The notes under the pieces: generated by a model
The model's input: only the letters and a program-made list of their open reading frames with translations
The model's database searches: none
What the model was told of the DNA's origin: nothing
Shown here: positions 37,457 through 40,818 of the stretch, piece after piece
How positions within the stretch are numbered: position 1 is the first letter of the stretch
Layout: the number at the start of each line of letters is the position of its first letter
Program-made: the position numbers and the translations under genes
Assembly: GCA_903930765.1 (NCBI GenBank)
Contig: CAIYZV010000410.1
Coordinates: 1 to 46,143, forward strand
Origin: an uncultured Pirellula sp.
GTDB lineage: Bacteria > Planctomycetota > Planctomycetia > Pirellulales > Pirellulaceae
Reading direction: 5' to 3'
Length of the DNA stretch: 46,143 nucleotides

Positions 37457-37798
37457 AGGGTTCGCTCGAACAATAGATGGAGGGATCGAACTGGAGGGAA
37501 TGGCGTACTACGGACCTAGGCTAAGAAATCGCCACGATCTCACATGGATTATGGTAGTTGGTAGCATGTTGCCGGTAAATTACCCATCTTCTTGCGAAAG
37601 TGTTTAAGTTTTATCGGTGGGAACACCACAAAATAGCCGAGGAGCCACCATCCTCTCGGGCGTCCGGGTGTTCGCAGTGAGCATTGCCGAATCGGGCAAG
37701 CGCATCGTAATGCCGCAGACTCGGTGGTTTCGGGGCCATGCACGTTTCGGGTCGATGGAACTCTAGACGATGCGTATAGTGGTATCGCGATCCGTTTT

Positions 37799-37862
37799 CC
37801 ACTGTTTTTCAGTCCCACTGTTTTTCAGTCCCGCTGTTTTTCCATCCCACTGTCGCGGTACC
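37799..37862. repeat. 16-bp tandem repeat upstream of pdxH
   Basis: Two exact copies of CCACTGTTTTTCAGTC (37799-37814, 37815-37830), a diverged third (37831-37846, CCGCTGTTTTTCCATC) and the beginning of a fourth (37847-37853). It ends 33 bp before the pdxH ATG. Confidence 0.92.
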
Positions 37863-37879
37863 AGCGGTACTTGCGGTAC
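37855..37879. repeat. Three GCGGTAC copies with 9-bp period
   Basis: GCGGTAC occurs at 37855-37861, 37864-37870 and 37873-37879, each 9 bp apart, 16 bp before the pdxH start codon. Could be a small tandem duplication or an array of binding sites. Confidence 0.7.
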
Positions 37880-37895
37880 CAACCGAGAGATCCCG

Positions 37896-38576
37896 ATGAC
37901 TATCCACCATCTTCGCCGAGATTACCGTTATGGCTCGTTGACGCGTGACGAGTTACCTTCGGATCCGATCGCTCTATTCCAAACCTGGTTTTCGGAATTG
38001 CGGGGGGCGGATTTACCGGAATGGTTTGAACCCAACGCGATGACGGTGGCAACGCACAAATCAACCGGTGGAGCAGCCTGCCGGATCGTCTTGCTCAAAG
38101 AAGTGGAACCGGATGGCTTTCTATTTTTCACGAACTACCAATCGAGCAAGGGGATGGAAATCGACGCGGATGGCCGAGTGGCTCTCGGATTTTATTGGCC
38201 CATCTTGGATCGCCAAGTTCGCGTGGAGGGAATTGCGGAACGGGTAGATCCGGAGATTTCAGAACGTTATTTTCGATCGCGGCCTCGATCGAGTCAACTC
38301 AGCGCGAACGTTTCGCCTCAGTCGGAAGTGATCGAGGACGATTCGCTCTTACAGCGTTTGGTGGATGAACTGGACGCAAAACTTGCCGGTGCCGATGTGC
38401 CTCGCCCTGATCACTGGGGAGGATATCGAGTCCGTCCGATATCGATTGAGTTTTGGCAAGGTCGTCCATCCAGATTGCATGACCGATTCCGGTACACCAA
38501 ACAAACGATCGCCCAAGGGATGGGTAATGAACCGATCAAGTCTGGGAGTTGGAAACTAGAACGCCTAGGACCTTAG
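37896..38576 (+). CDS. pdxH: Pyridoxamine 5'-phosphate oxidase
   Basis: 226 residues from the ATG at 37896, which gives the normal length and the N-terminus MTIHHLRRDYR. The FMN and substrate signatures are visible: 'ACRIVLLKEVEPDGFLFFTNYQSSKGMEI', 'RVEGIAERVDPEISERYFRSRPRSSQLSA' and the C-terminal 'GYRVRPISIEFWQGRPSRLHDRF'. It oxidises pyridoxine and pyridoxamine 5'-phosphates to PLP with FMN in the cytosol. PLP serves the two PLP enzymes in this window, but no operon link exists. The reading frame extends upstream through repeats and is rejected there. Confidence 0.95.
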   Translation: MTIHHLRRDYRYGSLTRDELPSDPIALFQTWFSELRGADLPEWFEPNAMTVATHKSTGGAACRIVLLKEVEPDGFLFFTNYQSSKGMEIDADGRVALGFYWPILDRQVRVEGIAERVDPEISERYFRSRPRSSQLSANVSPQSEVIEDDSLLQRLVDELDAKLAGADVPRPDHWGGYRVRPISIEFWQGRPSRLHDRFRYTKQTIAQGMGNEPIKSGSWKLERLGP

Positions 38577-38653
38577 TCTCGAAAGCTATGCCGCGATCGA
38601 CGGTAGGGCATGACCCCTCGGATCATTACCATGGCATCGCATGCCCAGTCCCA

Positions 38654-38719
38654 GCAGAGGAATACCCCGGCCTGTGCGGTGAGGCGGACACCACGAGCAG
38701 GCCGTTGGGGTACCTCTGC
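38654..38719 (+). ncRNA. Long three-helix hairpin, candidate structured RNA element
   Basis: Three successive helices stack: GCAGAGG/CCTCTGC (38654-38660 with 38713-38719), TACCCC/GGGGTA (38663-38668 with 38707-38712) and GGCCTG/CAGGCC (38669-38674 with 38698-38703), with an AA bulge on one side and a GTT bulge on the other. The apical part adds GGTG/CACC (38678-38681 with 38689-38692) around AGGCGGA. That is 23 base pairs in 66 nt. The strand is not determined by the sequence; plus is assumed from the flanking genes. Confidence 0.45.
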
Positions 38720-38774
38720 GCGCGGCTTGCCGACGCAAAAGCGAATTGGTTATTGGCTAGAAAACCATCGAAAG

Positions 38775-38810
38775 CGTGAGGAGCCAAAAGAAAATCTCTT
38801 GGCCCTCACG
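38775..38810 (+). other. 12-bp stem-loop with single bulge
   Basis: CGTGAGG (38775-38781) pairs with CCTCACG (38804-38810), and after a bulged A, GCCAA (38783-38787) pairs with TTGGC (38799-38803); the loop is 11 nt. No T-tract follows (AAATCTTTCG), so terminator function is doubtful. Confidence 0.5.
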
Positions 38811-39115
38811 AAATCTTTCGACGTTTGGGTAGAACGGACCGACTGCACAACAACCATGCATTCGGTCACGAGACACTGAAAAGCAATCAATGTGCCAAGG
38901 TGACACAGATTGCCGACATTGATCTGAATCGAACGGTTTTCCCTAGGTTTTCGAATTGTTTTTTTTCGTTACGATGGACGGAGTTCGCAGGAGCCTACGG
39001 CGTGCTGCCTGATAAACTGGCAACTGTCCAGTTTCAAAGCAGTCGTACAAGGACACGCTTGTCGTTGCGCCCCCCGAAACTTGGAGGCCTTCAGGTTAGG
39101 ACCAGTTGAGGTGGC

Positions 39116-39147
39116 GGTTGGGATCGACGTAAAAATCGTCCCGAACC
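39116..39147 (+). other. Bulged stem-loop about 90 nt upstream of leuA
   Basis: GGTT/AACC, GGGA/TCCC and CGA/TCG helices (39116-39127 with 39136-39147) with single-base bulges and a loop rich in A (CGTAAAAA). It may be part of a leuA leader. No leucine-codon-rich leader peptide was seen nearby, so classical attenuation is not supported. Confidence 0.35.
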
Positions 39148-39237
39148 TTGGGCGGCCCGCTAGAATCTGAATCGCTAGAGACCAACTGGATTGCCCGTCC
39201 CAGCATATATCAACCCCCACAAATCGTTCGATAACTA

Positions 39238-40818
39238 ATGACTCAAGCCGACACTCCTTCGTCCAATCTTCGCAGCATCCGTATTTTCGACACGACACTC
39301 CGCGACGGCGAGCAGTCCCCAGGAGCAAGTATGAATTTGGGCGAGAAACTGGAGGTTGCCCAAGCCCTCGCTTCTCTCGGCGTGGACGTTATGGAAGCAG
39401 GTTTTCCAATCGCTTCTCCGGGCGACTTTGAGGCGGTGCGGGAGATTGCGACGACCATCCGTGGACCTATCATTTGCGGATTGGCCCGATGCAACGACGG
39501 GGATATTGATCGGGCATGGGAGGCATTGCAGAAAGCGGAACGCTCTCGCATCCACGTCTTCCTCGCGACCAGTGCGATCCATCGCGAGTTCAAGTTGCGG
39601 ATGACACAAGACGAGATCATCGCGAGAGCGGTCAAAGGTGTCGAGCGCGCATTGTCGTACTGCGATGATGTCGAATTTTCTGCCGAGGACGCCGCGAGAA
39701 CGGAAATCGATTTTCTGTGCCGCGTGGTCGAAGCTGCCATCGATGCGGGGGCGACGACAATCAACGTACCCGACACTGTCGGTTACACAACTCCCGAAGA
39801 AATGTACGCCCGGATTGCAGAACTCATCAATCGAGTTCCCAACATCGATCGGGCAGTGTTAAGTTGCCACTGCCACGATGATTTAGGTTTGGCGGTCGCC
39901 AATTCGCTCGCAGCGGTTCGCGCGGGAGCCGGACAGATTGAGTGCACGATCAACGGCATCGGAGAGCGAGCTGGAAACTGTTCGCTCGAAGAAGTTGTCA
40001 TGGCGATGCGAACACGGAACGATATCTACCAGACAACCACGCGGATCAAAACCGAACGGTTGGTCCCTATCAGCCGACTTCTTTCCAAAATCACAGGCCT
40101 CGACGTGCAGCGCAACAAAGCGATCGTCGGGAGAAACGCGTTTGCGCACGAGGCTGGGATCCACCAGGACGGCATGCTCAAGGATCGCAGCACTTACGAA
40201 ATCATGAGACCGGAAGATGTCGGTTTCGCGAAAACGGACCTTGTTCTGGGCAAACACAGCGGCCGCGCGGCGCTCGCGGACCGCGCACGGGATCTTGGAT
40301 ACCATCTCAATGGCGAACAACTTCAAATCGTCTTCGAGCAATTCAAGGTCCTCGCCGATAAGAAAAAGAACATTTTCGACGGTGACATTATCGCTCTCAT
40401 CCAACAACAAATCAGCGGCGCCACAAATACCGCTTGGACTTTGGTTTCGTACAAAGTGCAAAGTGGATCCTCCAAAACTCCCAGCGTGGAACTCAGCCTC
40501 AAACACGGAGATGAAACGTTCACGGAACGGGTCGAGCAAGGGGACGGACCGATCGATGCGGCGTTCTGGGCGGTCGAGAAAATTACGGGCATCAAAACCG
40601 TTTGCAAGGATTTTCGAGTTCGTAGCGCATCGCTTGGTCGAGACGCCATCGGTGAAGTCACCGTTGAAGTCGACCACGAAGGAGAATCGTATCGCGGTAC
40701 GGGAGCATCCACCGACTCGGTCGAAAGCACCATCCTCGCAATGCTCAATGCCATCAATCGGATCATCACCGAAAAGAGCTTGCGCAGCGCTAGCAAAGTA
40801 ACCCCGCAGGACGCATAA
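39238..40818 (+). CDS. leuA: 2-isopropylmalate synthase
   Basis: A 526-residue enzyme of normal length. The catalytic DRE-TIM barrel begins 'FDTTLRDGEQSPGASM' (about 17-32), with metal ligands in 'LSCHCHDDLGLAVANSL' (about 208-224) and 'GIGERAGNCSLEE' (about 239-251). The linker 'HEAGIHQDGML' and the C-terminal leucine-binding regulatory domain (about 395-515, 'GEVTVEVDHEGESYRGTG') are complete, so feedback inhibition by leucine is expected. It condenses acetyl-CoA with 2-oxoisovalerate, the first committed step of leucine synthesis. It is preceded by the structured 661-bp region and followed by an unrelated serine hydrolase, so it is probably a single-gene unit. Confidence 0.95.
   Translation: MTQADTPSSNLRSIRIFDTTLRDGEQSPGASMNLGEKLEVAQALASLGVDVMEAGFPIASPGDFEAVREIATTIRGPIICGLARCNDGDIDRAWEALQKAERSRIHVFLATSAIHREFKLRMTQDEIIARAVKGVERALSYCDDVEFSAEDAARTEIDFLCRVVEAAIDAGATTINVPDTVGYTTPEEMYARIAELINRVPNIDRAVLSCHCHDDLGLAVANSLAAVRAGAGQIECTINGIGERAGNCSLEEVVMAMRTRNDIYQTTTRIKTERLVPISRLLSKITGLDVQRNKAIVGRNAFAHEAGIHQDGMLKDRSTYEIMRPEDVGFAKTDLVLGKHSGRAALADRARDLGYHLNGEQLQIVFEQFKVLADKKKNIFDGDIIALIQQQISGATNTAWTLVSYKVQSGSSKTPSVELSLKHGDETFTERVEQGDGPIDAAFWAVEKITGIKTVCKDFRVRSASLGRDAIGEVTVEVDHEGESYRGTGASTDSVESTILAMLNAINRIITEKSLRSASKVTPQDA

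Follow-up and report, generated by a model that had tools for sequence, protein, structure and literature searches.

The window, that is, the whole 46,143-nt stretch of uncultured Pirellula sp. DNA that was analysed, contains a gene-free gap of 661 bp (38577–39237) between a stop codon at 38576 and an ATG at 39238, just as had been described in the original prediction. That prediction regarded the gap as carrying a candidate novel structured RNA, either a leader of leuA or an independent non-coding RNA; the candidate novel or independent RNA is supported by the analysis presented here, whereas the leuA leader is not. The gap holds the predicted RNA together with its promoter and activator site. 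Both of the stems described at the outset exist, and they are given as stem-loops 2 and 4 among the following features of the locus:

37770–38576, plus strand: open reading frame originally called pdxH (putative name and start), convergent with the RNA
38654–38719, minus strand: stem-loop 4, terminator-like, the originally described 23-bp three-helix hairpin; 20 pairs family-wide, 16 of them with two-sided changes
38682–38688, minus strand: terminal loop UCCGCCU, a putative seed; all of the 65 aligned sequences have CCGCCU
38720–38736, minus strand: stem-loop 3, small hairpin preceding the terminator; 5 pairs, none with two-sided changes in the genus
38768–38821, minus strand: stem-loop 2, the originally described 12-bp hairpin; 14 pairs, 6 with two-sided changes
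38825–38834, minus strand: conserved segment UUCUACCCAA, outside the modelled pairs, taken from the alignments
38838–38866, minus strand: stem-loop 1, 5' hairpin; 10 pairs, 8 with two-sided changes
38871–38654, minus strand: predicted small RNA of about 218 nt; 27 orthologues aligned, 24 in the pair count
38883–38897, minus strand: sigma-54 (-24/-12) promoter TGGCACATTGATTGC; TGGYAC-N5-TTGC in 27 of 27 genus loci
39006–39022, no strand assigned: palindromic candidate enhancer-binding-protein site TGCCAGTTTATCAGGCA; 26 of 26 loci
39238–40818, plus strand: gene originally called leuA (putative name), divergent from the RNA

A BLASTN search with the gap gave matches in 27 of the 60 near genomes, namely in the window's own genome and in all of the 26 other members of the genus present in the draw. 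For most relatives within the genus, the match covered just the part from about 38656 to an end point between 38739 and 38778, and it is the alignment that extends the conserved block as far as the promoter at 38897, which could not have been seen in the original prediction. A hairpin pattern search returned 24 stretches, from MAGs of Pirellula, Planctomycetota or Planctomycetaceae. The gap is single-copy in the genome. Between 38200 and 39600, the repeats found were two short direct ones of 12 and 15 nt, each in two copies, and inverted pairs were absent; as these are the only repeats and the gap has one genome copy, the stems are not parts of a decayed repeat element. At two loci (L022 and L024), short tandem-looking repeats were seen near the RNA, past its 3' end.

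The +1 position of the RNA (about 38871) was deduced from the promoter geometry, and its 3' end (about 38654) is predicted. Folding of the segment 38640–38830 yielded −87.9 kcal/mol, whereas shuffled sequences averaged −62.3 (z, −5.35; none of the 200 shuffles was as low), and that of the whole 661-nt gap a z of −2.61 (20 shuffles). The genus structure comprises 49 pairs, with 92.2% of the cells being standard pairs, as counted in 24 of the 27 sequences (L021, L025 and L026, which have long inserts, were left out). None of the 500 shuffles attained its covariation score of 0.256 (mean, 0.134), and one of the 500 had as many as its 16 pairs changed on both sides (mean, 11.6). Both covariation among orthologues and conservation are present, in agreement with the structured RNA that had been proposed. 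Within the genus, stem-loops 1 and 2 show two-sided changes, as does stem-loop 4 in its upper part, its base being almost invariant like stem-loop 3. In the alignment of 65 sequences, stem-loop 4 has 205 double-change cells versus 59.3 in shuffles, and all of the 12 pairs in its apical stem show two-sided changes.

At the genus loci, the closing stem of the terminator-like hairpin ends 217–283 nt past the promoter start, and most of these loci have T-rich DNA after the hairpin, the T-run of the window being weak (TATTCCTCT). As the pdxH reading frame converges on stem-loop 4, this hairpin might be seen as a mere terminator shared by convergent genes, with the remainder of the block being incidental. 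Such a reading is very improbable, given that stem-loops 1 and 2 show two-sided changes, that the promoter is conserved, and that the loop is invariant although terminators need no fixed loop.

The strand of the RNA is indicated by the pairs themselves: the 49 pairs of the 24 sequences include 127 G–U cells when read on the minus strand versus 13 would-be G–U cells on the plus strand. Based on these G–U pairs, the conserved sigma-54 promoter and the polarity of the terminator, the RNA is assigned to the minus strand and points away from leuA. In 20 out of 27 genus genomes leuA lies beside the RNA, which is what a plus-strand leuA leader would call for. On the plus strand, however, the 127 paired cells become A–C, the promoter and terminator face the opposite way, and other genera mostly carry the RNA behind amtB; the leader is extremely improbable, and the G–U test speaks against it, barring use of both strands. 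In four genomes (G005, G022, G024 and G026), leuA is replaced beside the RNA by a distant homologue (28–29% identity), located on the RNA's own strand and upstream of it (G005:C1:2512562-2514118, G022:C6:30140-31753, G024:C114:103841-105469, G026:C122:20197-21777). Neither leuA nor the distant homologue is found beside the RNA in G006 and G011, and the contig ends there in G004.

No match to Rfam 15 was obtained for the window, either at the gathering score or at E-values up to 10, and none was obtained at the gathering score for 20 loci of relatives. A family known to Rfam 15 was rejected on the basis of these searches, which is consistent with the initial impression that the stems were unlike known families. 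A messenger for a small protein was also considered, since ORFs of 15–64 codons are found within the RNA in 20 of the 27 sequences. These ORFs differ in position and sequence, their lengths vary through indels, and seven of the 27 sequences contain no ORF of 15 codons or more; with no ORF common to the 27 sequences, this candidate was rejected and can practically be dismissed. In being non-coding, structured and provided with a terminator-like end, the RNA is like trans-acting base-pairing small RNAs that end in an intrinsic terminator.

The promoter matches TGGYAC-N5-TTGC, the sigma-54 -24/-12 consensus, and the gene for RpoN is present in the genome. In total, 20 exact TGGYAC-N5-TTGCW sites occur in the 5.74-Mb genome versus 12 for the reversed control. 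The palindrome, in the form [TC]GCY-N9-RGCA, was found in all of the 26 genus loci with enough upstream DNA, 143–196 bp upstream of the predicted start; its strict form, TGCY-N9-RGCA, is present in 23 of the 26 versus 0.7% of mononucleotide shuffles. Among the 20 exact sigma-54 sites of the genome, that of the RNA alone has TGCY-N9-RGCA within 260 bp upstream. The genus loci have both a -24/-12 promoter directly upstream of the RNA and an upstream activator site, as would be looked for in a sigma-54-dependent small RNA. A second palindrome with different spacing is present at L027 and L028, and the sigma-54 site of L100 has a one-letter variant of the palindrome at −76. In other genera, the palindrome lies 124–139 bp before six of the nine sigma-54 candidates of amtB (these nine stem from 8 of 16 loci, and two of the six palindromes were found by relaxed patterns), the comparable spacing in the window being 125 bp. 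Outside the genus, stand-alone promoters of the RNA have a palindrome at 100–140 bp in only 2 out of 13 cases (L171 and L281), and only three of the 23 genus amtB leaders carry one.

The distribution of the RNA was explored with two covariance models, R2 (whole RNA) and R3 (3' part, built from 65 sequences), both of which give rough E-values. R2 matches 84 of 241 family genomes in 26 of 68 genera; 27 of these 84 belong to the genus itself and 57 lie outside it. R3 matches 223 of 396 order genomes, which belong to 82 of 144 genera, and some genomes carry two to four matches. In a draw of 392 genomes from the phylum, which includes members of the order (the split was not itemised), R3 gave nine matches, all of them within the same order as the window. 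The CCGCCU loop is also present in 20 out of 20 further order loci; this constancy should be read with the facts that R2 was trained on genus sequences carrying CCGCCU, and that CCGCCU served as the anchor for cutting the pieces, although no match failed the anchor. Between stem-loops 1 and 2, CUACCCA is conserved; of four other genera compared, g77 and g87 also have it behind amtB, as opposed to g7 and g41.

At the family loci outside the genus, amtB is located directly upstream of the RNA in 50 out of 57 cases (48 by pattern and two by eye), and a PII gene is found downstream in 37 of the 57. In the window's genus, amtB is directly upstream in none of the 27 loci. The RNA therefore occupies the 3' UTR of a nitrogen gene in the relatives, as GlnZ does, and not in the genus. 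Where amtB is missing, L171, L183 and L186 have a sigma-54 promoter 221–242 nt before the loop and PII after the RNA; L185 has a sigma-54 site 385 nt before the loop, L137 and L141 have an imperfect site only, and L172 lies near a contig end. For the 20 further order loci, a sigma-54 site within 450 nt upstream was found in nine, amtB by pattern in three, and neither in eight. In three order loci (L281, L287 and L293), amtB is replaced upstream of the RNA by another gene, the product of which presumably resembles an outer-membrane beta-barrel protein.

In 53 of the 77 non-genus loci, a PII gene lies 102–412 nt past the loop, and no sigma-54 site lies between the RNA and PII in any of these 53; thus, the RNA may also set PII read-through there, and the linkage suggests a role in cis in the relatives. 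It might be argued that the RNA is throughout a cis-acting attenuator or terminator, setting read-through into PII in the order, and that the window's copy has been displaced and is a relic. This is improbable: no PII gene was found downstream of the RNA at any of the 27 genus loci (flanks of about 1.5 kb in 24 and less in L016, L017 and L018), yet the promoter is kept in all of the 27 and the fold in the 24 sequences counted, whereas a relic would decay. Since the PII genes of the genus are located elsewhere and are absent from the downstream flank, action in trans is the better reading at the window's locus. In a tree of 46 AmtB proteins, which omits the AmtB of the window's own genome (split over two contigs), 24 RNA-linked rows are separated from 12 AmtBs of the genus by a branch with support of 94/95, and seven unlinked AmtBs of other genera fall on the RNA-linked side. 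This split suggests that the RNA-linked type of amtB was lost in the genus and that the RNA was retained.

The CCGCCU of the loop is complementary to AGGCGG, the ribosome-binding site of the main amtB of the genus. AGGCGG stands a few bases before the ATG of this gene in 24 of the 28 genus leaders examined (10 + 13 + L218); the leaders without it (L354, L356, L357 and the fused L192) belong to other or unsettled copies. Of 212 distinct ORF starts at the genus loci, those of 10 amtBs have AGGCGG in the 20 nt before them, as opposed to none of the 202 other starts, a control set that includes possible non-genes and mutual orthologues. Genome-wide, neither AAGGCGG before an ATG (74 versus 73 in controls) nor AGGCGGAG (13 versus 11) is enriched. 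Outside the genus, AGGCGG is present in two of the nine unlinked amtBs, both of other families (L196 and L217), and the RNA-linked amtBs have AGGCGGA in one of 16 and AGGCGG in none of seven.

Being similar to a Shine–Dalgarno sequence, AGGCGG may owe its conservation to ribosome binding or to pairing within its own leader, and in 13 out of 23 amtB leaders a 6-mer located further upstream is complementary to the AGGCGG site. In the window's clade, AGGCGG and CCGCCU form six pairs; the loop's best duplex, with seven, is shifted by four bases and still covers the ribosome-binding region of amtB. Because of the competing 6-mers and the shifted duplex, amtB is a good candidate target, short of a result. 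The amtB of the genus has a sigma-54-like element of its own (GGCN7TTGC) in 19 of 23 leaders, so the RNA and its target may be produced at the same time. In leuA (19 loci) and one PII gene (25 loci), about 400 nt around the match start contained no 8-mer complementary to either motif. With these two genes and amtB making up the candidates examined, the RNA might be nitrogen-regulated and have other targets, through UUCUACCCAA or another seed, or might bind a protein. The conservation of CUACCCA fits such a role, which is nevertheless rather unlikely, as an invariant loop that matches the amtB ribosome-binding site, a site absent at the 202 other starts, would then need a separate explanation.

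A nitrogen-regulated small RNA that acts in trans and tunes the translation of the ammonium transporter is the reading we consider probable, though far from assured. Sigma-54 RNA polymerase would transcribe a non-coding RNA of about 218 nt from the minus strand, activated by an enhancer-binding protein bound at the palindrome, which lies 108 bp before the promoter, and transcription would stop at stem-loop 4. From the linkage of the RNA to amtB and PII genes in the relatives, we infer that the signal is most likely nitrogen status. The exposed C-rich loop UCCGCCU could then pair in trans with the AGGCGG ribosome-binding site of the unlinked amtB mRNA, perhaps assisted by UUCUACCCAA, and such pairing would be expected to lower translation of the transporter. 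In most of the family loci detected, the RNA would instead be part of the amtB 3' UTR, often before a PII gene, with the window's genus keeping it apart. The computation shows conservation, strand, fold, promoter, activator site, gene linkage and the complementarity of loop and ribosome-binding site, whereas transcription, nitrogen as signal, action in trans, amtB as target and the sign of the regulation belong to the proposed model. A broader view, which we hold tentatively and at somewhat below an even chance, is that one order-wide RNA serves as amtB 3' UTR, PII leader and free small RNA, its loop being a constant seed against transporter ribosome-binding sites; after loss of the host amtB, it would take or gain a sigma-54 promoter and act in trans on whichever amtB is left.

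NrsZ and other sigma-54/NtrC-dependent small RNAs have a sigma-54 promoter, several stem-loops and a terminator. The RNA of the window shares these three features, but it occurs in Planctomycetota and is linked to amtB and PII in its relatives. By analogy, the nearest concept is GlnZ, an enterobacterial small RNA from the glnA 3' UTR (PMC9731577). Both are linked to nitrogen, and in relatives of the window the RNA forms the 3' UTR of a gene for nitrogen assimilation; the host gene is, however, amtB rather than glnA, the phylum is another one, and the RNA of the window would stand alone under a sigma-54 promoter of its own. The glnA RNA and Downstream-peptide motifs, which are glutamine riboswitches, are likewise found near PII and ammonium transporter genes (PMC2864571); unlike them, the RNA of the window has no Rfam match, stands alone and has a terminator-like end. 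The same source lists the Rhodopirellula-1 motif as a candidate RNA of Planctomycetes and Proteobacteria, in a row without an Rfam number and apparently marked as probably cis-regulatory (PMC2864571); compared by description only, it may be identical to the RNA of the window. Among the matches listed for open-access literature, mostly without full texts, there was no nitrogen-regulated small RNA of Planctomycetota. If the proposed function is true, the phylum gains a post-transcriptional nitrogen circuit, and the loci form a natural series from 3' UTR through PII leader to stand-alone gene, illustrating the passage of a 3'-UTR RNA into a gene of its own. The match between the loop and the ribosome-binding site opens the way to a direct mutational test.

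Most of the 23 genus amtB leaders (e.g., L342, L200 and L213) contain a conserved hairpin of their own, TGCGNA(A/T)TCTCTC.GCA, whose CTCTC loop complements a GAGAGA immediately preceding the ribosome-binding site, in a pseudoknot-like arrangement. No Rfam match was found in this conserved leader in the eight loci searched, and it is possibly a second regulatory RNA. In the amtB flank of L213, two matches to Acido-Lenti-1 RNA (RF01687) were detected, at 451–496 on the plus strand and at 345–390 on the minus strand.
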